Assembly: GCA_024640385.1 (NCBI GenBank)
Contig: JAHEFC010000092.1
Coordinates: 1-11,633, forward strand
Source: Sphingobacteriales bacterium
GTDB taxonomy: Bacteria > Bacteroidota > Bacteroidia > Chitinophagales > Chitinophagaceae
DNA length: 11,633 nucleotides
Direction: 5' to 3'
Every line of letters starts with the position of its first letter. The stretch's first letter is position 1. The notes beneath the pieces were generated by a model, which was not told the origin of the DNA, searched no databases, and saw nothing but the letters and a program-made list of their open reading frames with translations. Positions 2-11,589 of this stretch are shown here, in pieces. The position numbers were made by a program, and so were the translations under genes.

Positions 2-421
2 CTGGAAGATAAAAAACTGAAGAAGACTTTTTACGTATTCAATGTACATTACGATCACCAGGGCGTAAAGGCCAGGGTGGAAAGCAGCAAACTGATACTC
101 CAGAAAATTAAATCGATCGCCGGAAATAAGGAAGTGATCCTAACGGGTGATTTCAACGGCAATCATGAAAGCGAATGGTACCTGGAACTGGCCAACAGCG
201 GTAGTTTGAAAGATGCTTTGTTCCAGACAACAAATGCTTACCGTAACACTGGCAGCTTTAATAGTTTCAAATGGGATAATCCGTCAAAAGATGTAATTGA
301 TCACATCTTTATAACTAAAGGATTTAAAGTAAGCAGGTATGGCATACTCACAGACAGTTACCATGGTAAATACCCCAGCGACCACTACCCGGTGTTAGCA
401 GAGCTAAGACCGGGAATGTGA
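2..421 (+). CDS. endonuclease/exonuclease/phosphatase family protein, 3' part only
   Basis: The open frame runs in from the left edge (first full codon at 2) and ends with TGA at 419-421; the N-terminal half lies outside the window. Visible motifs are those of the DNase I-like EEP fold: NVHYDH (a substrate or metal-side His/Asp region), GDFN with the catalytic Asp-Asn pair, DHIF, and the closing SDHYPV with the catalytic His. The family cleaves phosphodiester or phosphomonoester bonds with a divalent metal; substrate cannot be told from this part. A GTG at 77 is an internal Val codon, because the family motif VHYDHQG lies upstream of it in the same frame. The last two codons (Gly-Met) and the stop lie in the repeat unit GGGAATGTGA of the inverted repeat at 412-543. 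The gene is convergent with ftsY, with 112 nt between the two stop codons. Family assignment is firm, function open. Confidence 0.85.
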   Translation: MEDKKLKKTFYVFNVHYDHQGVKARVESSKLILQKIKSIAGNKEVILTGDFNGNHESEWYLELANSGSLKDALFQTTNAYRNTGSFNSFKWDNPSKDVIDHIFITKGFKVSRYGILTDSYHGKYPSDHYPVLAELRPGM

Positions 422-543
422 GGAATGTGATAAATGTGGGAATGTGGTCGAATGAATGTGATGAATGTGAGAATTCGTTTTCATTTTCACATTCATTTAG
501 CGAAGCGCCACATTTATCACATTCCTCACATTCTCACATTCCC
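412..543. repeat. tandem-unit inverted repeat between convergent EEP gene and ftsY (site A)
   Basis: The left arm holds six AATGTG cores (starting at 415, 424, 433, 441, 455 and 464, mostly 8-9 nt apart). The right arm holds five CACATT cores (488, 509, 518, 527 and 535). Positions 414-439 and 508-533 are exact reverse complements over 26 bp. A second nested pair, AATGAATGTGA at 451-461 and TCACATTCATT at 487-497, closes the inside, with GAATTC at 471-476 near the turn. As RNA from either strand this would form a long hairpin at the transcript end. A role as bidirectional terminator or 3'-end stabiliser for the convergent pair is inference. Both flanking genes stop inside the outermost units. 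Confidence 0.85.
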
Positions 544-1493
544 TTAAAAATGCTGTCTACGAATTCATGCTTGTTGAACACCAGCAGGTCTTCCATCTTC
601 TCACCAACCCCAACGAATTTCACCGGGATTGCAAACTGACTGGCAATAGCCAGTACCACACCACCTTTTGCAGTGCCATCGAGTTTAGTTATAGCAAGCG
701 CTGTAACATCAGTGGCAGCCGTGAAATGTTTGGCCTGCTCCAGCGCATTCTGGCCCGTTGACCCATCAAGCACCAGCAGCACTTCGTGCGGGGCATCAGG
801 GATCACTTTCTGTATCACCCGGCGGATCTTACTTAATTCGTCCATCAGGTGGGCTTTATTGTGTAACCTTCCTGCTGTATCGATGATCACTACATCTGAG
901 CCCCTGGCCATTGCACTGTTCACCGTATCAAATGCAACAGAAGCCGGATCGCTGCCCATATCTTTCTTCACAATGGGCACACCTGCCCTTTCACTCCAGA
1001 TGGTCAGCTGGTCCACTGCAGCAGCCCTGAAGGTGTCTGCCGCGCCCAGCAGAACAGATTTGCCGGCGGTTTTAAAATTATGTGCCAGTTTGCCTATCGT
1101 AGTTGTTTTACCCACACCGTTCACGCCTACCACCAGGATCACATAGGGTTTAGTACCCTGTGGCGTTGAGAAATCGCGGTAACTCTGCTCTTTGGCATCC
1201 ACCAGCATCGATTCGATCTCTTCCTGCAGGATCCTGTTCAGTTCACTGGTATTAAGATATTTGTCTTTTGCAACCCGCTGCTCAATGCGTTCAATGATCT
1301 TTACAGTTGTATCAATACCTACATCGGCACTTACCAATGCATCTTCCAGGTTATCCAGCACTTCTTCATCCACTGTACTCTTACCCGCTACGGCTTTGGT
1401 GATGCGCGAGAAAATATTTTCCCGGGTTTTTTCCAGGCCTTCATCCAGAGACTGCTTTTCCTTCTTTCCAAAAAACTTATCGAATAATCCCAT
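534..1493 (-). CDS. ftsY: signal recognition particle receptor FtsY (SRP GTPase)
   Basis: FtsY is the SRP receptor: it binds the SRP-ribosome complex at the membrane and, with Ffh, hydrolyses GTP to hand nascent membrane proteins to SecYEG. The 319-residue product has the NG domain almost from the start: a helical N domain (about 1-100), then the G domain with the P-loop GVNGVGKTT (123-131), DTFRAAAVDQL (153-163), DTAGRL (205-210), TKLDGTAKGG (269-278) and GVGEKMEDL (295-303). The long acidic A domain of E. coli FtsY is missing, as is common in Bacteroidota; membrane binding would rest on the N-terminal MGLFDKFF helix. The gene starts 9 nt after the GNAT stop, so the two are probably co-transcribed. 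The last residues, Gly-Met and TGA, come from the repeat unit of site A. Confidence 0.97.
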   Translation of the reverse strand: MGLFDKFFGKKEKQSLDEGLEKTRENIFSRITKAVAGKSTVDEEVLDNLEDALVSADVGIDTTVKIIERIEQRVAKDKYLNTSELNRILQEEIESMLVDAKEQSYRDFSTPQGTKPYVILVVGVNGVGKTTTIGKLAHNFKTAGKSVLLGAADTFRAAAVDQLTIWSERAGVPIVKKDMGSDPASVAFDTVNSAMARGSDVVIIDTAGRLHNKAHLMDELSKIRRVIQKVIPDAPHEVLLVLDGSTGQNALEQAKHFTAATDVTALAITKLDGTAKGGVVLAIASQFAIPVKFVGVGEKMEDLLVFNKHEFVDSIFKGM

Positions 1494-1502
1494 AGTCCAA
1501 AT

Positions 1503-2027
1503 TTAAAAATAGAGGTCGAACCTCATCAGGTAATCCTGTTGTATTTCATTACCAAACCGGAAACCTGTTGTTTCATATACTACAAAACCCGCATTTTGGT
1601 AGAACCTGATCGCTTTATGGTTCTGTTGCCATACCTGCAGCCAGATCACGGGATATTTTTCTTCTTTGGCCAGGGACTTGATCTTTTCCATCAAAGCCTT
1701 TCCCACATTATAGCCCTGGAATTCTTTCAATACATAGATCCTTTGAACCTCGAGTGTTTTGCCTTCAATAGCCTTCGGCTTCCTGTCGTTTCGGAGTTTG
1801 CAGAAACCCACCGGCGTTCCGTCCAGGTATGCAATATAAAACCTGGCATCCGGCGTACTCAGCTCTTCGGCAATGACCTCATTGGAAAAAGATTCGTTCA
1901 CATAGAGCTCAACATTTTTGGGATCGTTATACTCGCCATATGTTTCCACAAAAGTTTTGCGGGCCAGATCAAGTATAAAATCCGCATCCTGTGGTCTTGC
2001 CTTCTCTATGGTTATCGTTTTTTCCAT
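1503..2027 (-). CDS. GNAT family N-acetyltransferase
   Basis: This is a 174-residue single-domain GNAT enzyme that would transfer an acetyl group from acetyl-CoA to an amine. The acetyl-CoA motif A is visible as VQRIYVLKEFQGYNVGKALM (94-113), containing the Q-x-x-G-x-G/A-type pyrophosphate loop as QGYNVGK. Motif B follows with LQVWQQNHKAIRFYQNAGF (130-148), a typical C-terminal GNAT signature. The overall pattern resembles the PaiA-like polyamine acetyltransferases, but the substrate cannot be assigned from sequence. It lies between the ribosomal-protein/DUF4295 group and ftsY, 9 nt upstream of ftsY. It is probably a later insertion into an otherwise conserved neighbourhood (inference). Its start at 2027 follows the DUF4295 terminator by about 20 nt. 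Confidence 0.9.
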   Translation of the reverse strand: MEKTITIEKARPQDADFILDLARKTFVETYGEYNDPKNVELYVNESFSNEVIAEELSTPDARFYIAYLDGTPVGFCKLRNDRKPKAIEGKTLEVQRIYVLKEFQGYNVGKALMEKIKSLAKEEKYPVIWLQVWQQNHKAIRFYQNAGFVVYETTGFRFGNEIQQDYLMRFDLYF

Positions 2028-2050
2028 GCCTTAACTTTACCGGGGGCAGT

Positions 2051-2090
2051 AAAAATAAGAAAAGCTGTCCTGGTATATACAGAACAGCTT
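2051..2090 (-). terminator. hairpin terminator after DUF4295
   Basis: On the minus strand AAGCTGTTCTG (2090-2080) pairs with CAGGACAGCTT (2072-2062), giving an 11-bp stem with one G-U pair and a 7-nt loop. A T-rich tail (TTTTCTTATTTTTA region, down to about 2050) follows. It lies 26 nt beyond the DUF4295 stop and 35 nt before the GNAT start, so it would end or attenuate the rpmB-rpmG-DUF4295 transcript. The GNAT-ftsY pair may then depend on read-through or a promoter I cannot place securely. Confidence 0.8.
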
Positions 2091-2115
2091 CCCCGTCAAT
2101 GCGAATATCTTTGAA

Positions 2116-2289
2116 TTACTTCTGAGCCAGGAATTCCTTGATCTTATCCTTATGGACGATCTGCTCTTTAAAAGTATAGGCACCAGACTTTGGACTGCGT
2201 ACGGCCTTGATCACTTTGGTCCAGTTCTTTGCCTCGGCTGCTGCCTTCTGGTCTTTGGTCTTGATCGCCGTTTTTGCTGCTTTTGCCAT
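2116..2289 (-). CDS. DUF4295 family small basic protein
   Basis: A 57-residue Lys/Ala-rich protein starting MAKAAKTAIKTKDQK and ending KIKEFLAQK, read from ATG at 2289-2287 to TAA at 2118-2116. The size, the Trp-Thr-Lys-Val-Ile-Lys-Ala-Val core, the SPKSGAY segment and the position directly after rpmG match the DUF4295 family, which in Bacteroidota sits between rpmG and ftsY. No function is established for the family that I can name. Its strong basicity, small size and tight spacing (2 nt after the rpmG stop) suggest a ribosome-associated protein, which is inference. It starts MAK like several small ribosomal proteins. The hairpin at 2051-2090 closes the unit behind it. Confidence 0.9.
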   Translation of the reverse strand: MAKAAKTAIKTKDQKAAAEAKNWTKVIKAVRSPKSGAYTFKEQIVHKDKIKEFLAQK

Positions 2290-2291
2290 GA

Positions 2292-2474
2292 TTATTTAAT
2301 TTCCTTGTGAACAGTATATTTTTTCATGATCGGGTTGTACTTCTTCAGTTCCAAGCGCTCAGGAGTATTCTTCTTGTTCTTGGTACTGATATAACGGCTG
2401 GTTCCGGGAAGACCAGTGGTCTTATGCTCCGTGCATTCCAGAATCACCTGAACCCTGTTGCCTTTCTTTGCCAT
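2292..2474 (-). CDS. rpmG: 50S ribosomal protein bL33
   Basis: The 60-residue product, starting [18 protein letters not shown] and containing [25 protein letters not shown], is bL33 of the large ribosomal subunit, located near the E site. Only one Cys is present (in ILECTEHK), so this is the C-minus form without the four-Cys zinc ribbon. Length is normal for the family. It lies 23 nt downstream of rpmB and 2 nt upstream of DUF4295, so all three should be one transcript from the rpmB promoters. Confidence 0.97.
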
Positions 2475-2497
2475 TGTAGTTCGCTTTTGTAATTTTT

Positions 2498-2734
2498 TTA
2501 AATATGAGATCCGTTTGCCCTCATCTCCTTAACCACATTGTACAGACCCCTCTTGTTGATGGTTCTGATAGCATCAGCAGAAACCTTCAAAGTGATCCAT
2601 TTTCCTTCTTCAGCGAGGAAAAAACGTTTGGTTTGCAGATTAGGCAAAAACCTTCTCTTCGTCTTAATATTCGAGTGGGAAACGTAGTTTCCGCCAATCG
2701 GCCTTTTACCTGTTACCTGACATACTCTTGCCAT
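2498..2734 (-). CDS. rpmB: 50S ribosomal protein bL28
   Basis: The 78-residue product begins [20 protein letters not shown], the standard bL28 N-terminus, and contains RRFLPNLQ and the closing [22 protein letters not shown]. An in-frame ATG ten codons upstream (2764) is rejected as start: the family begins at MARVCQ, and a strong promoter -7 box (2755-2762) overlaps the upstream segment, so transcription would begin near 2749, about 15 nt before the chosen ATG. It is the first gene of the rpmB-rpmG-DUF4295 unit. Confidence 0.97.
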
Positions 2735-2754
2735 TATCTGAAATTTTGGGACGG

Positions 2755-2784
2755 CAAAGGTCAAATAATTTTGGGAATTTTCAA
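2755..2784 (-). promoter_or_regulatory. rpmB proximal promoter (Bacteroidota type)
   Basis: On the minus strand TTG (2784-2782), 19 nt, then GACCTTTG (2762-2755) matches the Bacteroidota sigma-A consensus TTG-N19-TAnnTTTG with one base off. Its predicted start point, near 2749, leaves a very short leader before the bL28 ATG at 2734. Confidence 0.75.
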
Positions 2785-2835
2785 AAAGAATTTCTGGTTA
2801 TTGTTAGACTAATTTCTTGATATTCCGGATAATAA

Positions 2836-2876
2836 CCCCTTACCCGGTCGAAATCAGCCTGATAGCCCCTTTCCCG
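2836..2876. repeat. short direct repeat in rpmB upstream region
   Basis: CCCCTTACCCG at 2836-2846 recurs as CCCCTTTCCCG at 2866-2876, one mismatch in 11, exactly 30 bp apart (about three helical turns). The preceding ATAA/ATAG is also shared. It lies between the two rpmB promoters, inside the leader of the distal one. A protein- or RNA-level control site is possible; nothing more can be shown. Confidence 0.45.
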
Positions 2877-2888
2877 CCAGGTTCAGCG

Positions 2889-2917
2889 CAAAGGTACACC
2901 GCTAAAGCTCAATACAG
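2889..2917 (-). promoter_or_regulatory. candidate distal rpmB promoter
   Basis: On the minus strand CTG (2917-2915), 18 nt, then TACCTTTG (2896-2889), an exact TAnnTTTG -7 box with a near-match -33. It would give a leader of roughly 150 nt before bL28, running through the direct repeat at 2836-2876 and the proximal promoter. Confidence 0.55.
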
Positions 2918-2931
2918 AAAATCGAGGTCCA

Positions 2932-2949
2932 AGGTGACCGAGGTCACCT
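2932..2949. promoter_or_regulatory. operator-like palindrome AGGTGACC-GA-GGTCACCT
   Basis: A perfect 8+8 inverted repeat with a 2-nt centre lies between the divergent promoters for rpmB and the DUF2892-trxA pair. GAGGTC also occurs directly repeated at 2924-2929 and 2940-2945. The right half overlaps the expected -33 position (about 2948-2950) of the plus-strand promoter, the usual place for a dimeric regulator. No regulator gene is in the window. Confidence 0.55.
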
Positions 2950-2977
2950 GTTTTGGCAGGAACTAAGGATAATTTTG
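2948..2977 (+). promoter_or_regulatory. promoter of DUF2892-trxA
   Basis: TAATTTTG at 2970-2977 is an exact TAnnTTTG -7 box; the -33 position 19 nt upstream reads CTG (2948-2950). Transcription would start near 2984, 18 nt before the ATG at 3002, which supports that start over any upstream one. Confidence 0.65.
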
Positions 2978-3001
2978 CATAATACAAGCAAAATCTTCAA
3001 C

Positions 3002-3223
3002 ATGACAAAGAATTTAGGAAACATCGACCGTACTGTCAGGGCCTTACTCGCAGTAGTTCTCGCAGTGCTATATTTCACAGGCGTGATCTCAGGCACTATG
3101 GGACTGGTTCTGGTGATATTAGGAGGCATATTTCTTGCCACCAGCCTGATCAGCTGGTGCCCGATCTATGCGGTATTGGGCATTAAAACCTGCCCGGCAA
3201 ATAAAAATCAGGCTGTACTATGA
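3002..3223 (+). CDS. DUF2892 (YgaP-like) small inner membrane protein
   Basis: The 73-residue protein begins MTKNLGNIDRTVRALLAVVL, the hallmark of DUF2892 (YgaP transmembrane domain) proteins. It has two hydrophobic segments (about 13-30 and 35-55) joined by the tight turn GVISGTMG, then SWCPIYAVLGIKTCP near the C-terminus with the two family-typical Cys. A TTG-initiated extension from 2975 would start inside the -7 box and is rejected. The stop overlaps the thioredoxin start as ATGA, so translation is probably coupled. In E. coli YgaP the domain is joined to a rhodanese; here its partner is a thioredoxin, which suggests a thiol-redox or sulfur role at the membrane (inference). Confidence 0.9.
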   Translation: MTKNLGNIDRTVRALLAVVLAVLYFTGVISGTMGLVLVILGGIFLATSLISWCPIYAVLGIKTCPANKNQAVL

Positions 3224-3528
3224 GTAAATTCCAGGAATTGATCAATGGGGAAACCCCGGTTCTGGTGGACTTTTCCGCCGAATGGTGCGGCCCCTGTAAG
3301 ATGATGGCCCCCGAACTCAAAAGACTGGTTGAGCGGGAAGGCGAACGGGTCAAAGTGATCAAAGTAGACGTAGACAGGAATCCACAGGCCTCCATGGCCT
3401 ACCAGGTAAGCAGCGTTCCAACACTGATCCTGTTCCATAAAGGCAAGCAGCTTTGGAGACAAAGTGGTGTGGCATCTGCGGCACAGCTTTCAGCGATCAT
3501 CAAAAAAATGGTCCCTAATCTGCCATGA
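3220..3528 (+). CDS. thioredoxin
   Basis: This 102-residue single-domain thioredoxin reduces protein disulfides in the cytoplasm, with no signal peptide visible. The active site WCGPC lies at 22-26 (Cys23, Cys26), the buried Asp in VDFSAEW at 17, and the cis-Pro loop SVPT at 65-68; the KVDVDRNP strand and C-terminal helix are complete, so length is normal. It begins with ATG overlapping the DUF2892 stop by four bases. Its last 14 bp overlap the end of the convergent transglutaminase-like gene, with no hairpin terminator visible between them, so the two transcripts probably share antisense 3' ends. Whether this is the housekeeping thioredoxin or a dedicated partner of the membrane protein cannot be told. 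Confidence 0.95.
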   Translation: MSKFQELINGETPVLVDFSAEWCGPCKMMAPELKRLVEREGERVKVIKVDVDRNPQASMAYQVSSVPTLILFHKGKQLWRQSGVASAAQLSAIIKKMVPNLP

Positions 3529-4468
3529 TCCTGTAAATGATTGCTGTTCGATTGGCATCCAGGGAAACATTGAGAAAATAATCGCCAGTTTCCCTTACCC
3601 GATAGCTGTATTCGTAGCCATTATTGACTCTCGAAAATCTTCCGAATTCAGGACTCAGGCCTTTTTTGTCGTCACTCCAGATCGCTATGCGATCCAGCGG
3701 TACAGCAGTATTGAACCGGAACCGTACCAGGTCGTTTTTCTTTACTTTTAATATGCCCGTTGCAGGTATAAACGCACTCACCTTCTTCTCATAATAAGGA
3801 TCGTGGAAAATGGGCCGGGAGAGAAAGGTCTGGGGATCCACAGGCTGGCTTATCAACTGCCAGCTGCTATCTGTAGGGAGATGGCTTAACGCAAGCATCT
3901 CCGGGTCGGGAAAGAAATAAAAAGGCGAAAAGGACCTGATCACCGTATCACAATTTTCACTGGCTTCCCCGCTGGCCCAGTTGGCATCCAATAATTTCCA
4001 TTCACCATTGACCTTTACAGCATTCCAGGCATGATTGGGCCTTGGCAGGTACTGCCAATAGAGGTCACGCCTGGCAGTTTTGGCTACGCCCCTGATCGCT
4101 ATGGATTCAAAACCCAATTGCTTAAGTGCATAATTGATCAGGCTGGAATAGCCTGAACAGGTTGACCTCCGGTTTTTGAGGATATTTTCAATCGACTGCA
4201 CCGAAGCACCACCGGGAGCTTCAATACCGCAATCGTACTCCAGGTTCAATGCGATCCAGGTGAACACGAACCTGACCTTTTCTTCGGGAAGGCTGAACAT
4301 TTTTCCAGCCCTTTCCAGCATGCTGTCCAGGGCGGAAAGTTCCGATATGGGGGCACTTAATTCCCTTGCAAAACGGTCTGCTTTCTCATAGTCAGGAGCC
4401 CGCTGGGCAAAGGATCCTGTGCAAAACAGGATCATCATTAAACATAAGGGGAATGAAGGCCTAGGCAT
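3515..4468 (-). CDS. secreted transglutaminase-like (papain-fold) protein
   Basis: The 317-residue protein starts with a signal peptide (about 1-21: MPRPSF, hydrophobic LCLMMILF, cleavage near SFA-Q). A transglutaminase-like core follows with the Cys-His-Asp triad visible as RRSTCSGYSSL (Cys104), RPNHAWNAV (His146) and WKLLDANWASG (Asp161). This spacing and the Trp-Lys-Leu-Leu-Asp motif match the bacterial transglut_core proteins, which act as proteases, amidases or cross-linkers; the reaction cannot be chosen here. Residues about 225-317 look like a beta-sandwich accessory domain (alternating hydrophobics, FIPATGILKVKKNDLVRFRF). Exported, probably periplasmic. Starts 63 bp from the divergent dihydrolipoyl dehydrogenase gene; ends in a 14-bp overlap with trxA. 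Confidence 0.87.
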   Translation of the reverse strand: MPRPSFPLCLMMILFCTGSFAQRAPDYEKADRFARELSAPISELSALDSMLERAGKMFSLPEEKVRFVFTWIALNLEYDCGIEAPGGASVQSIENILKNRRSTCSGYSSLINYALKQLGFESIAIRGVAKTARRDLYWQYLPRPNHAWNAVKVNGEWKLLDANWASGEASENCDTVIRSFSPFYFFPDPEMLALSHLPTDSSWQLISQPVDPQTFLSRPIFHDPYYEKKVSAFIPATGILKVKKNDLVRFRFNTAVPLDRIAIWSDDKKGLSPEFGRFSRVNNGYEYSYRVRETGDYFLNVSLDANRTAIIYRIMAD

Positions 4469-4531
4469 GTAACCGGATTAGATGAATACAAATTAGTATT
4501 TTCGCACCTCAATTAAATTATAATCATTGTT

Positions 4532-5938
4532 ATGGCATACGACGTAATTGTTCTGGGAAGCGGTCCGGGTGGTTACCCTGCTGCTATCAGGGCTTCTCAA
4601 CTGGGCCTCAAAGTAGCGATCGTTGAAAAAGAAAGTCTGGGTGGTGTTTGTCTCAACTGGGGCTGTATCCCCACCAAGGCACTTCTGAAAAGTGCCCAGG
4701 TGTATGAATACCTGAAACATAGTGCCGATTATGGCATTCAAAGCAGTGGCGTATCCCACGATTTTGGTGCAGTGATCAAAAGAAGCCGTGGCGTGGCCGA
4801 CAAAATGAGCAAAGGTGTGCAGTTCCTGATGAAGAAGAATAAGATCGATGTGATCATGGGATTTGGAAAGGTAGCAGGCAAGGGAAAACTTGAAGTGACT
4901 GCTGCAGATGGTAGCAAGCAGGTAGTTGAAGCAAAATATATCATTATTGCCACGGGGGCGCGCAGTCGGCAATTACCGGCTATGCCTATCGACGGAAAGA
5001 AGATCATAGGTTACCGGGAAGCCATGGTATTACCCCAACAGCCCAAATCCATGATTGTAGTAGGCAGTGGCGCAATAGGTGTTGAATTCGCAGATTTCTA
5101 CAACAGCATGGGCACTAAAGTGACCATAGTTGAATTCATGCCAAGGGTTGTTCCGGTGGAAGATGAAGAGATCAGCAAAGAGCTGGAAAAACACCTGAAG
5201 CGTAAGGGCATCACCATCATGACTTCAGCTGAAGTGACTAAAACAGATACTACCGGTGCGGGCGTAAAAGCTACTGTTAAGAGTGCAAGTGGCGAGTCGG
5301 TGCTGGAAGCGGATATATTATTAAGCGCTGTGGGTATCCAGTCTAATCTTGAAGGCATTGGCCTGGAAGAAAATGGGATCAAAACGGAGAAAGGTAAGAT
5401 CGTAGTGGACAAATACGGCCAGACCAGTGTTGCCGGTATTTTCGCCATTGGCGACTGTGCACCTGGCCAGGCACTGGCACACGTAGCCAGCAAAGAAGGC
5501 ATTAATACTTCTGAGTACATCGCATATCTGGAGAAAAAATCAACTCACCTGCCTGAAGCCATGGATTATAACAATATTCCGGGCTGTACATATTGCAGTC
5601 CTGAAGTGGCATCAGTAGGCTACACGGAGAAAGCTGCAAAAGAGGCAGGATATGAAGTGAAGGTGGGTAAGTTCCCCTTCATGGCCAGTGGTAAAGCCAG
5701 TGCATCAGGAGCCACAGAAGGATTTGTAAAAGTGGTGTTTGACGCTAAATATGGCGAGTTCCTCGGAGCCCATATGATCGGCCAGGGAGTTACCGAACTG
5801 ATCGCTGAAGTGGTAACCGCCAGGAAACTGGAGACCACCAATCACGAGTTACTGAACGCAGTGCATCCTCACCCCACCCTCAGCGAAGCTGTCAAAGAAG
5901 CAGTGGCTGCGGCGTATGGGGAAGCGATTGATATTTAG
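4532..5938 (+). CDS. lpdA: dihydrolipoyl dehydrogenase (E3)
   Basis: This cytoplasmic flavoenzyme reoxidises dihydrolipoamide in the pyruvate, 2-oxoglutarate and branched-chain dehydrogenase complexes and in the glycine cleavage system, passing electrons to NAD. The 468-residue protein is full length. It has the FAD dinucleotide fold VIVLGSGPGGYPAA (5-18), redox disulfide CLNWGCIPTK (Cys40, Cys45), NAD fold VVGSGAIGVEFADFY (about 176-190), second FAD motif GIFAIGDCAPG (about 303-313) and the C-terminal His-Glu dyad region HPHPTLSEAVKEA. It stands alone, not beside E1/E2 genes. A candidate -7 box TATTTTCG lies at 4497-4504. The stop TAG begins inverted repeat site B. Confidence 0.96.
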   Translation: MAYDVIVLGSGPGGYPAAIRASQLGLKVAIVEKESLGGVCLNWGCIPTKALLKSAQVYEYLKHSADYGIQSSGVSHDFGAVIKRSRGVADKMSKGVQFLMKKNKIDVIMGFGKVAGKGKLEVTAADGSKQVVEAKYIIIATGARSRQLPAMPIDGKKIIGYREAMVLPQQPKSMIVVGSGAIGVEFADFYNSMGTKVTIVEFMPRVVPVEDEEISKELEKHLKRKGITIMTSAEVTKTDTTGAGVKATVKSASGESVLEADILLSAVGIQSNLEGIGLEENGIKTEKGKIVVDKYGQTSVAGIFAIGDCAPGQALAHVASKEGINTSEYIAYLEKKSTHLPEAMDYNNIPGCTYCSPEVASVGYTEKAAKEAGYEVKVGKFPFMASGKASASGATEGFVKVVFDAKYGEFLGAHMIGQGVTELIAEVVTARKLETTNHELLNAVHPHPTLSEAVKEAVAAAYGEAIDI

Positions 5939-6057
5939 AGAGGCAGAGAGTAAGAGAGACAGAGAGACAGAAAAAATGCGGAGGAATTCTCCGCATTTTT
6001 TATTGAATATTTTATAGTGTCTTACTCTCAGCCTCTCTTCCTCTCTGACTCTCTTTA
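5936..6057. repeat. purine-arm inverted repeat between convergent lpdA and DUF4197 gene (site B)
   Basis: The left arm is made of GAGAG/AGAGACAG units from the lpdA stop to 5970; the right arm, 6019-6055, is the pyrimidine complement and reaches the DUF4197 stop. AGAGAGGCAGAGAGTAAG (5937-5954) matches the reverse complement of 6021-6038 at 17 of 18 positions. The pair flanks the compact terminator hairpin 5971-6001, with GAATTC at its turn. The architecture is that of site A with a different unit. Confidence 0.8.
5971..6001. terminator. bidirectional terminator between lpdA and DUF4197 gene
   Basis: AAAAAATGCGGA (5971-5982) and TCCGCATTTTTT (5990-6001) form a perfect 12-bp stem with a 7-nt loop, GC-rich in the middle, giving a run of Ts on the 3' side in both directions. 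It is well placed to end both convergent transcripts. Confidence 0.9.
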
Positions 6058-6804
6058 TTTCGCCCCAAACACCTGCTTGAGTATATCCGTTGTTCTCGCA
6101 ACTGGATCCGTACGGATCTTTTTTTCCTCTTCGGCAAGCTGTACAAAAATTCCTGATAATGCTTTTTCCGTTACATAAGCCGGAAGATCAGTGTTGACTT
6201 TCTCTTTGCTGAATTTATTGTAACTGGTAAACACCGTATTCCAGTATTTAGTAGCATCTACTTTTTTGAGGGACTCTTCAATCACCGGCCTGAATGCTTC
6301 TGTCAGCTGCGGAGTGGTTTTGGATTGCAGATAACTTGTTGCCGCATTATCCGATCCTTTGAGAATGCCCATGGCATCCTGGAAACTCATTTGCTTCACC
6401 GCATTAACAAAAATTGGCGTGGCAGATTTTGCCGCGTCTTCTGCAGCCCGGTTCATCGAAAGTATGGCATCATCCACCTGTTTACCCAAACCTACGCTCC
6501 TCAGCGTTTTCTCCACTTTTTTAGCTTCCTCAGGCATCAAAACCTTGATGGCTGCATTAGCGAAATACCCGTTGGGGGATGATACTGTTTTTGTGCACCT
6601 TTCGGTACCAACAGTAAGCGCTTCTTTAAGACCGGCTATCACCTGGTCGTTCGTGAGCGCCCCGCCCGATTTGGACTGCTTCATGAACTTATCCAGTTTA
6701 CTGCCAATACCAGATTTTGATGAGTCCTTTTTGGGAAATAACTGAGCGAAACTTTGCGCTGTAATAATAAGGGCCAATGCACTGAGGAGTAAGGATCTTT
6801 TCAT
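6055..6804 (-). CDS. DUF4197 family exported protein
   Basis: The 249-residue product has a signal peptide (MKRSLLLSALALIITAQSFA, cleavage before Gln21) and then a mostly helical DUF4197 domain. Recognisable family segments are ALTNDQVIAGLKEALTVGTE (49-68), the PNGYFANAAIKVLMPEEAKKVE stretch (82-103), DDAILSMNRAAEDAAKSATP (115-134), and the C-terminal TDLPAYVTEKALSGIFVQLAEEEKKIR. The family has no assigned biochemical role that I know; proteins are periplasmic or membrane-linked and about this length. It has its own promoter (6825-6854) and shares the terminator at 5971-6001 with lpdA. Confidence 0.9.
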   Translation of the reverse strand: MKRSLLLSALALIITAQSFAQLFPKKDSSKSGIGSKLDKFMKQSKSGGALTNDQVIAGLKEALTVGTERCTKTVSSPNGYFANAAIKVLMPEEAKKVEKTLRSVGLGKQVDDAILSMNRAAEDAAKSATPIFVNAVKQMSFQDAMGILKGSDNAATSYLQSKTTPQLTEAFRPVIEESLKKVDATKYWNTVFTSYNKFSKEKVNTDLPAYVTEKALSGIFVQLAEEEKKIRTDPVARTTDILKQVFGAK

Positions 6805-6824
6805 AGTTTCTGATCGGTTTTAAA

Positions 6825-6854
6825 CAAAGCTATTACCTTAAACGTGAAGGGCAG
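6825..6854 (-). promoter_or_regulatory. promoter of DUF4197 gene
   Basis: On the minus strand TAGCTTTG (6832-6825) is an exact TAnnTTTG box, with CTG (6854-6852) 19 nt upstream at the -33 position. It overlaps the stem of the protease-gene hairpin (6849-6879), packing end and start signals together. Confidence 0.65.
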
Positions 6855-6879
6855 GTTAATCTTGTGATTGAACCTGCCC
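6849..6879 (-). terminator. hairpin behind M43 protease gene
   Basis: GGGCAGGTT (6849-6857) and AACCTGCCC (6871-6879) form a perfect 9-bp stem, extendable by three A-T pairs with a bulge. It lies 23 nt past the protease stop. The T tail on the minus strand is poor, so termination may be leaky. Confidence 0.65.
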
Positions 6880-6902
6880 ATTTATTCCCTACCGAATAAA
6901 TA

Positions 6903-8195
6903 TTATTGCTTCACAAACCTTAGCACCTGTTTATCAGCGTTTTCTCCCAGCCTGATAAAGTAGATTCCACGGTGCAGAGAGGAAATATTAAGGTTGAAAA
7001 TGTTGGCACTGATGGTTCCGGCTGTCACTACCCTTCCGTCAACAGAATAAACAGCAAAGGTCTGGCCGGTAATGTTCTGCTCGCTTGTTGCAGCGATGGT
7101 GATTTTTTCAACTGCAGGGTTAGGATACAATTTAACCGGAGCGATCACTACCATTGGAGCTGGTTGGGATACTGTACCTGCATTTGTTCCGGAATTGGTA
7201 CCGGCAGTTACTGGTGTATTATTCCATGGCTCACCAAGCGCTTTTGAATAACGGATGCTTTCCCTGATGCCACCCGCATTGAAAAGGTTACGCATCCTGT
7301 TCACCTGGCCCTGTGTGAACATCATCATACTGGCGTCGTTGGTGAAATCCATGAAGTTCATGAACATTTCACCATAGGGATTAGCCGCTGAACAACCCAT
7401 TCCCATTTTAGGGAAAGTTGGCGTACCCTGGTTATACGTTTTTTGTTGGGGCGTATCGTCCACTTCATCAGATCCGCATTCTTTATCACCCCAAAGGTGT
7501 TTCAGGTTAAGCCAGTGGCCAACCTCATGAACTGCAGTTCTTCCCATATTGAAATTGCCTGAGGCAGATGTACCGAAAATGTTGAACTTGATCACAACGC
7601 CATCCTTGTCAGCAGGTGAACCAGGGGCTGATGAATAACCAAGAAGGCCGGGAACCAGGTTACAAACCCAGATGTTCAGGTAACTGCGGGTATCCCATGG
7701 GGTTACCCCGCCATATTCAGCCATCTTCACTTTATCATCATTGGTCCAGAGTTCGCGAACTGATTTGGTACGTGTGATACCGTTTGTAGCCCTTCCATTA
7801 GGATCTACTTTAGCCAGTACGAACCTGATATTTGAAACACCTGCAACACTGGCAAAAACGGCAGGCACTTTTGAAAAATCTTCGTTTTCCTTATTGAAAT
7901 TCCTGTTCAGCGCTTCGATCTGTGATTTGATCTGCTCATCAGTTACGTTGGCGTTGGCATTATAAAGAACATGCACAACAACAGGGATGGTAATTACAGT
8001 TTGTGAAGAAAGTTCTGCTGAAGACGCTCCGGTATTTGACGACTGCGGAGCAGCAAAACTCAGATTGTTCCTGAAAGAAGGGGCTTGAAATTCAAGACGT
8101 ACCCTGTCCAGGTAAGCGGAAGTTCCGCAATTCTTTTGGGCAAATACTGCCTGGGTAAAAAGTACCAGAACTACTAGAGAGGTAAGAGTTTTCAT
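6903..8195 (-). CDS. secreted M43 (pappalysin/cytophagalysin) zinc metalloprotease with T9SS sorting domain
   Basis: The 430-residue protein has a Sec signal peptide (1-19, cleavage near VFA-Q). A metzincin catalytic domain follows with the zinc motif HEVGHWLNLKH (223-233; His223, Glu224, His227, His233), and the Met-turn MNFMDFTND (279-287), as in MEROPS M43. Residues about 327-346 are a Thr/Gly/Asn-rich linker. The last ~75 residues (KLYPNP at 355-360, VYSVDGRVV, SSLHRGIYFIRL, closing KQVLRFVKQ) are a type A T9SS C-terminal domain, so the protein should pass the outer membrane by type IX secretion and be released or surface-anchored. It probably digests proteins outside the cell. The start codon lies in a possible 7-bp hairpin with 8216-8222. 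Confidence 0.94.
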   Translation of the reverse strand: MKTLTSLVVLVLFTQAVFAQKNCGTSAYLDRVRLEFQAPSFRNNLSFAAPQSSNTGASSAELSSQTVITIPVVVHVLYNANANVTDEQIKSQIEALNRNFNKENEDFSKVPAVFASVAGVSNIRFVLAKVDPNGRATNGITRTKSVRELWTNDDKVKMAEYGGVTPWDTRSYLNIWVCNLVPGLLGYSSAPGSPADKDGVVIKFNIFGTSASGNFNMGRTAVHEVGHWLNLKHLWGDKECGSDEVDDTPQQKTYNQGTPTFPKMGMGCSAANPYGEMFMNFMDFTNDASMMMFTQGQVNRMRNLFNAGGIRESIRYSKALGEPWNNTPVTAGTNSGTNAGTVSQPAPMVVIAPVKLYPNPAVEKITIAATSEQNITGQTFAVYSVDGRVVTAGTISANIFNLNISSLHRGIYFIRLGENADKQVLRFVKQ

Positions 8196-8272
8196 TCGAT
8201 TTGATTTCAGAGGTTTCGAATGGCTCTCAGAGAACTAAGGATTCTAGACTTTCAATAGATTTGGATAAACAA

Positions 8273-8356
8273 CATTTGGGTGCACAAACCCGGAGATTCT
8301 AAAGGATTGGAAGAAAATGATTTGGCCGCACAAGCCGAAGATTTCTAAAGGATTGG
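8273..8356. repeat. degenerate 47-bp direct repeat
   Basis: ATTTGG...GCACAA...TTCTAAAGGATTGGAA at 8273-8311 recurs at 8320-8358, with the block TTCTAAAGGATTGGAA identical. A weaker third copy starts near 8240 (GGATTCTAGACTTTCAATAG). Each clear copy has a small potential stem around a GCACAA loop (GGGT/ACCC in the first, GGC/GCC in the second). It lies in the leader or upstream region of the protease gene. Function unknown. Confidence 0.6.
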
Positions 8357-8548
8357 AATAAGACCAGGAAAACACCTGGATGGTAAGTCTCGGAAGTGGA
8401 TGATGGGCTCCGTAAATAATCGGATATTCTGGAGATCTGATCCGAATAACAGAGGTCTACAATGCAAAACAACAAAACTTAGCGAACAAATCAAAGCCAC
8501 TCAACGGATTTTTAACGCCATCTGTCGCCATGATCCCCGCCAATTCTC

Positions 8549-8556
8549 TACATTTG
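8549..8556 (+). promoter_or_regulatory. -7 box of glutaminyl cyclase gene
   Basis: TACATTTG is an exact TAnnTTTG box. I see no good TTG at the -33 position. Transcription would begin near 8563, upstream of the lipoprotein ATG at 8608 and downstream of the alternative ATG at 8530, which decides the start. Confidence 0.5.
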
Positions 8557-8607
8557 ATGAATAATCGATTGATAAAAAGAAGGTTAGCCCAGATCCCGCA
8601 TTTTATT

Positions 8608-9438
8608 ATGTTGAAAAATATTTTACCTGCCGTCCTTGTATTTTTGGCTCTTTCCTGCAATAATTCCGGTACTGAACAGTCTGGTACAGCTGAAGAACCA
8701 CAGGCGCCCCTGATTCCCGAAGCTGCCCTGGTACCTTACACCGTAGTTAACACCTATCCCCATGATACAGCTGCATTCACACAGGGGCTTGAATTTCATA
8801 ACGGCACACTCCTTGAAAGCACTGGCCTTGAAGGCCGGTCCAGCCTCAGAAAAGTGGACCTGCCAACAGGAAAGCCAAAAGAGTTGAAGCACCTGGAGGA
8901 TAAATTATTTGGAGAAGGGATCACCGTGCTGAACGACACACTTTATCAACTCACCTGGCAGAACCACAAGGTACTCATGTACAATCCCCAGAGCTTTAAA
9001 CCCCTGGGCGAGCTGAACTGGAGCAATGAAGGCTGGGGGATAACCAACGACGGAAAGTCGTTGTACATTTCAGACGGTAGCGATAAGATCTACGTAGTAA
9101 AACCAGGAACACTCAAACTCGAACGGGTGATCTCGGTAACTGATCACCTCGGCCCCCTGAATAACCTCAATGAACTGGAATATATCAATGGCAGCATTTA
9201 TGCCAACCGCATCGAATACAATTACATTGTGAAGATCGATCCGTCCAACGGACATGTAACCGGCAAACTTGATTTCACTGATATTTTGAAAAAATACAGC
9301 AAGATGGATCTCAGTTACCTGGAAAACAATCCGCATGGGGCAGTTTTGAACGGGATAGCATGGGATCCGTCTAAAAAGAAGATGTATATCACGGGCAAAC
9401 TCTGGCCCCTGGTATTTGAACTGCAGGTTGAGCCTTGA
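8608..9438 (+). CDS. glutaminyl-peptide cyclotransferase, lipoprotein
   Basis: This enzyme converts N-terminal Gln to pyroglutamate with loss of ammonia. The 276-residue product is a lipoprotein: MLKNILPAVLVFLALSC carries a lipobox (LALSC, Cys17), followed by a flexible Asn/Ser/Thr/Glu-rich linker. The rest is the five-bladed beta-propeller of plant/bacterial glutamine cyclotransferases (Glu_cyclase_2): FTQGLEFHNGTLLESTGLEGRS, LFGEGITVLNDTLYQLTW, EGWGITNDGKSLYISDGSD, LNELEYINGSIYANRI, and the closing NGIAWDPSKKKMYITGKLWP. An in-frame ATG at 8530 would put 26 charged residues before the lipobox and precede the -7 box, so 8608 is preferred. In Bacteroidota, many secreted proteins have Gln after signal-peptide cleavage (as do three here), natural substrates for it (inference). 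Confidence 0.92.
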   Translation: MLKNILPAVLVFLALSCNNSGTEQSGTAEEPQAPLIPEAALVPYTVVNTYPHDTAAFTQGLEFHNGTLLESTGLEGRSSLRKVDLPTGKPKELKHLEDKLFGEGITVLNDTLYQLTWQNHKVLMYNPQSFKPLGELNWSNEGWGITNDGKSLYISDGSDKIYVVKPGTLKLERVISVTDHLGPLNNLNELEYINGSIYANRIEYNYIVKIDPSNGHVTGKLDFTDILKKYSKMDLSYLENNPHGAVLNGIAWDPSKKKMYITGKLWPLVFELQVEP

Positions 9439-9463
9439 GTTTTCTGATCAATCCATATCTTTA
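9435..9463 (+). promoter_or_regulatory. promoter of the NagB/PIG-L fusion gene
   Basis: TTG (9435-9437), 18 nt, then TATCTTTA (9456-9463) fits TTG-N19-TAnnTTTG with the last base off. The -33 box overlaps the stop codon of the cyclase gene. The leader to the ATG at 9496 would be about 25 nt. Confidence 0.6.
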
Positions 9464-9495
9464 CGCCCCTGACTTTAACCGCTAAAACTATCTAC

Positions 9496-11403
9496 ATGAG
9501 CCTAGTTGATTCTTTTGAGAAGATACCCGTTCAGATCTATGAGAATGATAAGATCGCTTCGGCCAGTGTTGCCCGGGAAATATCTGACCTGATCAGGCAG
9601 AAACAAAAAGATGGCAAAACCTGTGTACTGGGTCTTGCTACGGGTTCCACGCCAAAAACATTATATAAGGAACTGGTTCGCCTGCATAAAACTGAAGGCC
9701 TGAGTTTCAAAAATGTGGTCACCTTCAATCTTGACGAGTATTACCCCATAGAACCCGACGCGCTGCAGAGCTATCACAGGTTCATGAATGTTCATCTTTT
9801 CGATCATATTGACATAGATAAAGCAAACACCCATGTTCCTGATGGAACCATAGAAAAGAATGACGTGAGGGCTTATGCGGCCGAATATGAGAAAAAGATA
9901 GAAATGGCTGGCGGTATAGATTACCAGGTGTTGGGCATAGGCATCAACGGGCATATCGGATTTAACGAGCCCGGTTCCGGAAGACAGTCTGGCACCCGCC
10001 TCGTTGCACTCGACAATACCACCAGGCTCGCCAACGCCTATGAATTCGCAAGCATCGCACAGGTTCCTCGGTTAGCCATCACCGTTGGTATAAATACCAT
10101 TTTGAAAGCAAAGAAGATCGTGTTGCTGGCCTGGGGTTCGCATAAGGCACCCGTGATCAGGGAGTCTGTTGAAGGCACTACCACGGATCATGTGCCTGCA
10201 TCTTTTCTGCAGGAACATAATAACTGTGTGTTTGTACTGGACGAAGGTGCCGCACAGGAACTGACCAGGTACAAATCGCCCTGGCTTACTGGTGAGATCG
10301 ACTGGACGGAAAAGCAGATCAGGAAAGCTGTTTGCAGTATGGCGCTGGACCTGAAAAAACCCATCCTCATGCTCACCAGCAATGATTACAATAACTATGG
10401 CCTGAGCGACCTCATGGTGAAATTCGGCTCAGCTTACGATATCAACCTGAGGGTGTTCAACGGTATGCGTGATACCATCACCGGTTGGCCCGGAGGAAAA
10501 TATTCTGAAGATGTACCCAGGCATCCTGAGCGCAGAGAGCCCAAAAGCAAAAGGGTGATCATCTTCTCCCCCCACCCGGATGATGATATCATCTCTATGG
10601 GTGGAACATTCATCCGCCTGCACGAGCAGGGACATGATGTGCATGTGGGCTACCAGACTTCCGGTAACATTGCAGTGAGTGATGAGTTTGTGATGAGGCA
10701 GATCGATTTCGCTGTTGAGTTCGACTCCATTTTCGGCATTGATAAAAGCCGCGCAAATGGCATCTGGCAGGATGCACGTGCCTTCATCAAAACCAAGAAA
10801 TCTTACCAGAAAGATACCGAGGAGATCAGGGCGATCAAAGGCCTGATCCGCCGTACGGAAGCCAGGGCCACCTGCCGTTATGTAGGGATCAAGGACGAGA
10901 ACATTCATTTCATGAATCTGCCGTTCTATGAAACGGGGCTTATCGAAAAAAATCCTCCAGGTGAAGCCGACGTGCAGATCACTATGGACCTGATCAAAAA
11001 AGTAAAACCTCACCAGATCTTTGCCGCCGGCGATTTCGCCGATCCCCATGGTACCCATAAAGTTTGCTTTGACATTATGATCGAAGCGCTGAAAAGGCTT
11101 AAAGCGGCAAATGATGAATCCATAAAAGACTGTGTACTCTGGTTATACCGTGGTGCCTGGGCAGAGTGGGATTGCTGGGATGTTGAAATGACGATCCCGA
11201 TGAGCCCTGACCAGGTAATGCAGAAGCGTAACGGGATATTCATCCACCAGTCTCAAAAAGACGGCGTGGTGTTCCAGGGCAGCGACAGCCGCGAATTCTG
11301 GCAGCGTGCCGAAGAGCGGAACTCAGGCACGGCCGACCTGTACGACAGGCTGGGATTGCCCAAATACGCGGCGCTGGAAGCCTTTATGAAATGGGAATAC
11401 TGA
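9496..11403 (+). CDS. nagB: glucosamine-6-phosphate deaminase-like / PIG-L deacetylase fusion
   Basis: A 635-residue two-domain protein. Residues about 10-265 are NagB-like (glucosamine-6-phosphate to fructose-6-phosphate plus ammonia): LGLATGSTPKTLY (45-57), TFNLDEYY (Asp80, matching E. coli Asp72), GINGHIGFNEPGSG (149-162; His153 and Glu158 match His143 and Glu148), TTRLAN (Arg177) and WGSHK (Lys217). At the place of catalytic Asp141 there is Asn151, and allosteric Lys160 is Val. Residues about 352-635 are a PIG-L/LmbE zinc deacetylase domain with SPHPDDD (His360, Asp362, Asp363) and DPHGTH (His518, His521). This domain order is known in Bacteroidota and is annotated nagB. One protein could deacetylate and deaminate an amino sugar, but substrates are inferred. 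Confidence 0.9.
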   Translation: MSLVDSFEKIPVQIYENDKIASASVAREISDLIRQKQKDGKTCVLGLATGSTPKTLYKELVRLHKTEGLSFKNVVTFNLDEYYPIEPDALQSYHRFMNVHLFDHIDIDKANTHVPDGTIEKNDVRAYAAEYEKKIEMAGGIDYQVLGIGINGHIGFNEPGSGRQSGTRLVALDNTTRLANAYEFASIAQVPRLAITVGINTILKAKKIVLLAWGSHKAPVIRESVEGTTTDHVPASFLQEHNNCVFVLDEGAAQELTRYKSPWLTGEIDWTEKQIRKAVCSMALDLKKPILMLTSNDYNNYGLSDLMVKFGSAYDINLRVFNGMRDTITGWPGGKYSEDVPRHPERREPKSKRVIIFSPHPDDDIISMGGTFIRLHEQGHDVHVGYQTSGNIAVSDEFVMRQIDFAVEFDSIFGIDKSRANGIWQDARAFIKTKKSYQKDTEEIRAIKGLIRRTEARATCRYVGIKDENIHFMNLPFYETGLIEKNPPGEADVQITMDLIKKVKPHQIFAAGDFADPHGTHKVCFDIMIEALKRLKAANDESIKDCVLWLYRGAWAEWDCWDVEMTIPMSPDQVMQKRNGIFIHQSQKDGVVFQGSDSREFWQRAEERNSGTADLYDRLGLPKYAALEAFMKWEY

Positions 11404-11474
11404 ACGATTGGCGGATTAGCGGATTGGCGGATTGACGGATTTTATAAAGAATTCGCCAATTCGCCAATCCGTTA
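11401..11474 (+). repeat. period-8 inverted repeat hairpin after the nagB fusion (site C)
   Basis: The left arm has units ATTGGCGG, ATTAGCGG, ATTGGCGG and ATTGACGG in exact 8-nt register from 11407. The right arm has ATTCGCCA, ATTCGCCA and ATCCGTTA from 11451, also in register. Positions 11417-11440 match the reverse complement of 11451-11474 at 20 of 24 positions. In plus-strand RNA three of the four differences are G-U pairs, leaving one A-C mismatch, with a 10-nt loop. GAATTC lies at the turn (11449-11454). It probably acts as the 3' end of the fusion transcript. Confidence 0.82.
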
Positions 11475-11487
11475 ATGCGATAATTCT

Positions 11488-11514: not shown

Positions 11515-11588
11515 GGCCCTGTAGCTCAATTGAATAGAGCATCTGACTACGGATCAGAAGGTTTCAGGTTTGAATCCTGACGGGGTCA
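11515..11588 (+). tRNA. tRNA-Arg (anticodon ACG)
   Basis: A complete cloverleaf of 74 nt. The acceptor stem GGCCCTG/CGGGGTC has two G-U pairs; discriminator A is at 11588. D stem GCTC/GAGC, anticodon stem TCTGA/TCAGA with loop CTACGGA (anticodon ACG at 11549-11551), five-base variable loop, and T stem TCAGG/CCTGA. CCA is not encoded. A34 would be edited to inosine by TadA to read CGU, CGC and CGA. Unusual: the D loop AATTGAATA has A at position 19 and the T loop TTTGAAT has T at position 56, so the normal G19-C56 contact is replaced by A19-U56. Confidence 0.95.
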
Positions 11589-11589
11589 C

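Follow-up and report, generated by a model that had tools for sequence, protein, structure and literature searches.

Three gene ends in the window

The window analysed here is the whole of contig JAHEFC010000092.1, 11,633 nt in length and contig 75 of the 585 that make up a 4.08-Mb draft genome (GCA_024640385.1) from a Sphingobacteriales bacterium of the family Chitinophagaceae. Three of its gene ends carry hairpin arrays of short words, called sites A, B and C, which belong to three of at least five word families in this one genome. In each, degenerate words stand in tandem and their reverse complement comes after them, as an initial annotation made from the sequence alone had described; direct reading bears this out, and the predicted RNA folds are far stronger than those of shuffled sequence, at -69.9 kcal/mol for site A (z -10.2), -55.0 kcal/mol for site B (z -6.9) and -44.8 kcal/mol for site C (z -8.0), with 0 of 200 shuffles as stable in any of the three cases. 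All three arrays also begin at a stop codon (TGA at 419-421, TAG at 5936-5938 and TGA at 11401-11403).

Site A (412..543, strandless; identified by sequence reading, BLAST and fold) is a two-arm array between convergent genes, an endonuclease/exonuclease-like gene at 2..421 on the forward strand and an ftsY-like gene at 534..1493 on the reverse strand, both named by eye. Its words join the core AATGTG to a linker of 2-3 nt, with a AATGAATGTG step close to the apex, and its inverted arms (414-439 and 508-533) are complementary at 26 of 26 positions, a perfect match that fits the usual word order of family A and not any special mirroring. The stop codons of both genes, TGA at 419-421 and TGA at 534-536, fall in repeat units (GGAATGTGA), and the last codons of the upstream gene belong to the array as well. 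Both reading frames close with G-M-stop, read from GGAATGTGA, and the last residues of the two proteins are thereby set by the array.

Site B (5936..6057, strandless) lies between convergent lpd-like and DUF4197-like genes, again named by eye, and is built on the core GAGAG with a 3-nt linker. The stop codon of the left gene is part of TAGAGAG, and the arms at 5937-5955 and 6020-6038 are 95% complementary. The word arms enclose an ordinary bidirectional terminator core (AAAAAATGCGGAG..CTCCGCATTTTTT, 5971..6001, strandless) with an A-tract, a GC stem and a T-tract; no such GC stem and T-tract were seen at sites A and C. Site C (11401..11484, strandless), a two-arm array of GATTNNCG words, separates a nagB/PIG-L-like gene (by eye), whose best named match among those listed is from Pollutibacter soli at 85%, from a forward-strand tRNA-Arg (ACG) at 11515..11589. 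The array was recognised correctly at the outset, but it does not end at 11474, since the right arm continues for about 10 nt; its arms (11407-11441 and 11450-11484) are 80% complementary. Rfam at gathering thresholds returned only the tRNA in the window, and a simple scan of the window for terminators and promoters gave counts no different from shuffles.

The initial annotation placed GAATTC in the turn of all three hairpins. This holds for sites A and B but not for site C, where the hexamer sits in the 3' arm beside the loop. It had also cautioned that about eight further copies in the window make the shared hexamer weak evidence, and rightly so: there are 11 in total, exactly eight of them elsewhere, and a 575-kb set of sequence from the same genome holds 326 copies where shorter words predict 293. 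We rejected a GAATTC turn as a common feature, since the hexamer is about as frequent as expected and no more than 15 of the 64 two-arm elements in that set have it in their spacers.

Word families are dispersed at gene ends of the genome

We searched the genome by BLAST with each site (E<=0.001, both strands counted, 40 candidates scored per search) and found at least 74 matches for site A, at least 60 for site B and at least 70 for site C. With two further words added, there are five hand-defined families with a hand-assigned strand: A (AATGTG), B (GAGAG), C (GATTNNCG), D (CAGGT) and E (AAAGT). The units of the three sites are indeed unrelated to one another, as first noticed, but each recurs across the genome. 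The initial annotation had named recurrence of the unit sequences as a dispersed repeat as evidence against its own proposal that units are made independently at each site, and this is what we find for all three. Every unit belongs to a dispersed family restricted to its lineage, and since each word recurs dozens of times, the idea that the arrays are made afresh each time has to change.

Two samples of the genome were used, with gene calls from a simple in-house script and not from a published gene caller. The unselected sample comprises 20 contigs (149 kb) chosen without regard to word matches and supplies only the inverted-repeat count, the five-family spacer counts and the 3'-end array score; the 575-kb set adds to it the window and 40 stretches, mostly match-selected, and underlies the results on arm polarity, mirroring, wobble, word order, core and linker, context and tags. 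In the unselected sample, arrays of families A-E occupy 7 of 15 spacers between convergent genes, 10 of 39 between co-directional genes and 1 of 16 between divergent genes (convergent against divergent, p 0.016; all 3' junctions against divergent spacers, p 0.053). By proportion, 18 spacers per 149 kb would correspond to roughly 490 spacers in the genome. Several convergent spacers without these families hold yet other words, judged by eye.

A family-agnostic score, in which a convergent spacer contributes both of its ends separately, detects arrays at 19 of 61 3' ends of genes, at 0 of 61 shuffled ends and in 1 of 388 coding windows. Enrichment at gene ends and at convergent pairs, which the initial annotation had suggested looking for, is supported in the unselected contigs. 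Gapless inverted repeats above threshold number 13 in the same sample, against 0, 0 and 0 in three dinucleotide shuffles; none lies inside a gene, and not all of them are word arrays. The match-selected part of the genome has arrays at 57 of 122 3' ends (two shuffled hits), and the 575-kb set, whose contigs are partly match-selected, has them in 37 of 59 convergent and 10 of 67 divergent spacers.

Families differ in the spacers that they occupy. Family B was found in 18 convergent, five co-directional and one divergent spacer, family C in 0, 18 and two, respectively (convergent against co-directional, p 1.7e-7, again from partly match-selected contigs). Where an end carries three or more sense words, the first of them begins at most 9 nt past the stop codon in 18 of 25 cases for family A, 28 of 38 for B, 18 of 18 for C and 12 of 14 for D, and at 6, 9, 11 and 0 of those ends, in the same order, it overlaps the stop codon itself.

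Layout, polarity and word structure

A full element consists of three to six degenerate words and then their reverse complement, directly behind the stop codon, and elements or the spacers that bear them span about 70-190 nt. The C-poor arm comes first in all 64 two-arm elements of the 575-kb set, in which 42 more arrays are single-armed. A count that uses no word list agrees, with G exceeding C in the 5' arm of 64 of 68 tandem inverted repeats in the window genome (three reverse, one tie). Among simple inverted repeats, those with more G than C in the first arm and those with the reverse number 19 and 7 in the window genome, but 7 and 19 in relatives. Family copies are not independent, so the effective number behind the polarity rule is the number of families. 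Single arms in co-directional spacers lean towards the sense strand (20 against 9, p 0.06), a bias that we do not claim.

Each word combines a constant core of 4-6 nt with a variable linker of 1-3 nt. When a middle unit is left unconstrained between two exact neighbours, family C shows 4 substitutions at 250 core positions and 65 at 150 variable positions, and core substitutions are similarly few in families A (7 of 222), B (14 of 285) and D (1 of 110). In family B, the two arms of a locus mirror one another beyond what the family pattern predicts, with 0 of 5000 alignment permutations reaching the observed score. Two-word runs are common to both arms in 8 of 23 family B loci (1.2 in shuffles), and four-word runs are shared between different loci in five arm pairs (shuffled mean 0.0).

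Arrays and words differ between close relatives

We compared two orthologous junctions across close species. The main one, between co-directional genes, was searched in 10 genomes and recovered with both flanks in nine (G010 had one flank). GTTGAAG words with the same apex occupy it in G006 (95 nt between anchors) and G012 (104 nt), and GTTGAAG words with another apex in G014 (123 nt) and G009 (118 nt). In G017, whose flanking proteins are 95% and 99% identical to those of G006, the same place holds 169 nt of a different word (GTTTAAGGG, GTTTAGGGG) that resembles a variant already present within the G006 array; G016 has a third word (77 nt). The junction is nearly empty in G004 (11 nt between anchors; 90/98% identity) and G002 (15 nt; 81/93%), and G011 has 165 nt without an array. 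In the left arms, all three differences between G006 and G012 fall in linkers. At the second junction an array is present in G011, and none was seen by eye in seven other genomes with both flanks; G014 yielded just a piece of the junction.

Comparisons between the window genome (G000) and relatives, tallied by hand, gave 12 pairs, from 11 junctions, in which the window genome has an array. The relative's spacer measures -1 to 6 nt in four of these, where the elements of the window genome measure 77-104 nt (one of the four, L042:0, possibly reflects a miscalled gene in the relative). The remaining relatives have a longer spacer without an array in five cases, another word in two and the same word in one (G031, family C). 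Of another 12 pairs, in which the window genome lacks an array, two have one in the relative. These comparisons establish that arrays differ between close species in both presence and word at fixed gene ends; the expectation that orthologous sites would keep the hairpin and change the unit holds at one well-resolved site and is seen in further comparisons too.

The families are each confined to a lineage. Among the matches listed in BLAST searches of 60 genomes, the site A sequence was matched in its own genome alone and the site C sequence in three, its own, G031 (at least three matches) and G022 (at least one). Among the matches listed for words from relatives, in 37 genomes, the word of G022 was found in G022 alone (at least 45 matches), and that of G011 in 10 genomes, all of one genus, with at least 89 matches in G011 itself; "genus" and "order" labels of relatives are here those assigned by the analysis tool. 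Samples of 20-140 kb per genome revealed arrays of other words in G019, G031, G033, G022, G020 and G011, members of the same genus, and no array passing the 3'-end score in those of G032, G005, G007, G008 and G015. Relatives with arrays carry them at 5-12% of 3' ends. Across 39 named Chitinophagaceae records the figure was 14 of 213 3' ends (one shuffled hit), and the records with arrays include named isolates of Chitinophaga solisilvae, C. eiseniae, C. niastensis and Pollutibacter soli.

The 3' end of nagB, the gene upstream of site C, was read by eye at 66 named loci. Most have a short terminator or no array, and six (L137, L139, L149, L163, L166 and L174) have long hairpins of differing sequence. 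In Chitinophaga solisilvae (L139), a terminator directly behind nagB is lengthened to a nearly perfect inverted repeat whose arms measure almost 60 nt and whose apex carries GGAATTCC, a candidate for a recent snap-back duplication. An inverted repeat of words resembling CCCATATATAACCC lies at a similar distance behind nagB in several Chitinophaga and Flavihumibacter records (L145 at 7769, L152 at 7626, L154 at 7541, L188 at 7542 and L195 at 8083); its C-rich arm comes 5', a polarity opposite to that of the word arrays.

Other repeats were seen in the same genomes. Two convergent genes of G020 are separated by an inverted repeat (L249, 785-1034) whose arms measure 89 nt and contain smaller palindromes, and G031 has long direct arrays of a longer unit, TTTTGGAAACCTATGG, at L229 (6532-6738) and L273 (near 10043-10433), unlike the short-word hairpins. 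Long tandem repeats at L255 (2155-2406) and L260 (7273-7500) read as Lys/Ala/Pro codons (AAGAAAGCTGCTCCT) and perhaps belong to histone H1-like proteins overlooked by the simple gene caller.

Comparison with known repeats

The nearest known kind is the repetitive extragenic palindromic (REP) element. Published REPs, according to the excerpted text of PMC3733652, lie near 3' ends and between convergent or co-directional genes, sometimes supply the stop codon and in some families are restricted to a species; like them and their dimers (bacterial interspersed mosaic elements, BIMEs), the word arrays are small, noncoding, palindromic and dispersed in tens to hundreds of copies near gene 3' ends. 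They differ from REPs in length (about 70-190 nt, against 20-40 bp with a stem of 5-13 bp), in building each arm from tandem 7-9-nt words with a constant core and a variable linker, and in lacking an unpaired GTAG or CGTC (TGTC) foot tag, which occurs in at most 4 of 64 elements per side. They also comprise several unrelated families with one layout, and the word differs between species at an orthologous site. Nor did the 2.2 and 2.6 kb around two Y1 genes show a REP-associated tyrosine transposase (RAYT) gene flanked by an array of families A-D, as would be expected of the GTAG type: one RAYT-like gene (L306) is flanked by another family and a second (L305) by no inverted repeat.

Direct TAACTGA heptamers, intergenic and dispersed, are known from Beggiatoaceae, cyanobacteria and five Bacteroidetes (excerpts of PMC4679880), and share with our arrays the dispersal of short intergenic tandem words. 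In the main genome of that work a single heptamer, mostly direct and inverted in one case, lies immediately before start codons, and the excerpts of the paper describe no hairpins at stop codons. The words here are instead degenerate and, unlike those of TAACTGA and short tandemly repeated repetitive (STRR) direct repeats, have an inverted arm in 64 elements (42 further arrays are single-armed). Intrinsic terminators also form stem-loops behind stop codons, and some word arrays, such as site B, enclose one; the arrays differ from them in their longer arms, tandem words and dispersed families, and in that a T-tract seems mostly absent by a simple test. A Porphyromonas gingivalis miniature inverted-repeat transposable element (MITE) with an internal minisatellite (PMC4596501) likewise has tandem repeats within a small, dispersed inverted-repeat element of the Bacteroidota; its brief description mentions no families of unrelated words with one gene-end layout. 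Stem-loop surveys report enrichment at gene ends or between genes (PMC13155455, PMC1590033, PMC4060949), and their excerpts do not describe tandem-word hairpins. A search of the open-access literature by title or abstract start found no published description of hairpin word arrays.

How the arrays may arise

We consider sites A-C to be REP-like noncoding hairpin elements that are spread and remodelled by DNA-level copying between gene ends, a reading to which we give roughly an even chance. Word segments would be copied at the DNA level from one gene end to another; copying would switch at the core, which would provide the homology, and slippage would add or remove words. Snap-back copying at a terminator or hairpin would produce the second arm. 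The analysis pointed to no dedicated enzyme for these steps. Gene ends may be where such insertions are least harmful, and a hairpin placed there may also serve as a transcript boundary. The apparent takeover of the junction in G017 by a variant word would be consistent with such copying. Slippage with template switching at a hairpin, one of the two causes suggested by the initial annotation, has direct support in family B but none in families A, C and D. A foldback made locally at every site, for which those three families likewise offer no support, was accordingly dropped as a general explanation and retained for family B; overall, the first interpretation is partly supported.

Several observations weigh against copying of this kind. 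The arms of families A, C and D are not mirrored beyond expectation (of 5000 permutations, 2142, 495 and 935 score at least as high as the real arms), and family C shares two-word runs between loci in 162 pairs, against 190 in shuffles. Both arms of a family C locus share such runs in 5 of 20 loci, with 5.1 in shuffles. Segment copying is compatible with these three families but was not seen in them. The right arms of G006 and G012, compared by eye, differ in linkers, in one core and by an added word. The family-agnostic score is positive in 3 of 15 divergent spacers, where it covered longer stretches than at the 3' ends (19 of 61), which means that divergent spacers, scored in this way, also contain some arrays. 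The C-poor-first rule is not predicted by the mechanism and rests on few independent families; in named Chitinophagaceae the polarity is weak, at 11 to 6 for G over C and 7 to 10 for a purine-rich first arm. Finally, the mechanism leaves the entry of the first word into an empty junction unexplained.

Selection for 3' RNA structure, the other cause proposed at the outset, would have terminators, RNase barriers or antisense shields rebuilt repeatedly, and we think it unlikely. The very stable predicted folds are what it would lead one to expect, as is the gene-end location with convergent spacers foremost (37/59 against 10/67 divergent; 7/15 against 1/16 in unselected contigs). Ordinary terminators form the core of some elements, as at site B and in Chitinophaga solisilvae L139, and excerpts of published surveys describe stem-loops at the 3' ends of genes from a range of bacterial phyla (PMC13155455, PMC1590033). 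Against this, arm mismatches that would keep G-U pairing number 53 in the sense and 56 in the antisense direction (p 0.85) in 30 co-directional elements, which gives it no support. The convergent values, family B at 3 against 15 (p 0.008) and pooled at 17 against 33 (p 0.03), have an arbitrary left and right and are taken as noise, without explanation. Close relatives manage without an array at the same junction, the arms of families A, C and D show no covariation beyond the family pattern, and a simple terminator is found at 15 of 132 array-bearing ends and at 16 of 144 ends without families A-E, some of which have other words. Somewhat less probable still is a classical REP or MITE moved in trans by a RAYT/Y1-type transposase. 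The arrays abut 3' ends, supply stops and sit as small dispersed palindromes in convergent and co-directional spacers, as REPs do in the excerpts of PMC3733652; families A and B retain a recognisable internal order or tip by eye, and the window genome has two Y1 transposase matches. Yet each of six tag strings occurs at the feet of at most 4 of 64 elements per side, no family A-D array was seen near the two Y1 genes, around which 2.2 and 2.6 kb were examined, another family, one containing GTAG, lies on either side of the weaker match (26 bits against a cut-off of 23), and family C shows no inherited word order. G011 and G022, both draft genomes, have dozens of matches to their own words but no Y1 match. 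Mobilisation by a RAYT is unsupported by the Y1 matches, their flanks and the tag counts.

On contig 82 (L306), repeats at 702-735 and 1402-1463 flank the gene with the weak, RAYT-like Y1 match (739-1314) on both sides with inverted tandem copies of CCTACCTCCAAGGT/ACCTTGGAGGTAGG, a string with 20 hits in 580 kb. The CCTACCTCCAAGGT arrays contain GTAG on the other strand, an internal contrast to word arrays A-D, and to judge from the letters the whole looks like a REP/RAYT system whose repeats are themselves tandem inverted arrays. The flanks examined around the other Y1 gene (L305) contain no inverted repeat.

The cores could alternatively be binding sites of sequence-specific proteins in phased arrays, with linkers left free because they are not read. 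The constancy of core positions beside variable linkers in families A-D, with the middle unit unconstrained, is in keeping with this, as are the different contexts favoured by families B and C. Several unrelated cores share one layout in the same genome, however, and the core differs between close species at one site, so that a rapidly changing set of binders would be needed; we rate this below either explanation just weighed. The arrays might also be low-complexity sequence arisen by chance or an artefact of assembling a fragmented draft, as the 585 contigs of the genome could suggest, but this is very improbable indeed given the 13 inverted repeats (not all word arrays) against none in each shuffle and the arrays in named isolates of Chitinophaga solisilvae, C. 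eiseniae, C. niastensis and Pollutibacter soli.

A bolder version of the copying reading, which we put forward tentatively and as the less probable of the two, is that a so far undescribed process in the Chitinophagaceae writes hairpin arrays at gene ends. The word would propagate itself, its core kept because it is used as homology or template for the word's own copying and its linkers randomised. Each lineage would have its own set of words, and one word could displace another at the same end among close species.

Implications for the Chitinophagaceae

For annotation, the arrays call for caution, as a repeat can supply the stop codon and the C-terminal residues of a protein. Because orthologous junctions can have one layout but different words, process can be told apart from sequence, and the birth, copying and replacement of bacterial intergenic repeats can be studied as a natural experiment. 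Since arrays lie behind about a third of unselected gene 3' ends (19/61) in this genome, and isolates from the family have related ones, they shape 3' untranslated regions, operon junctions and intergenic evolution at large scale.

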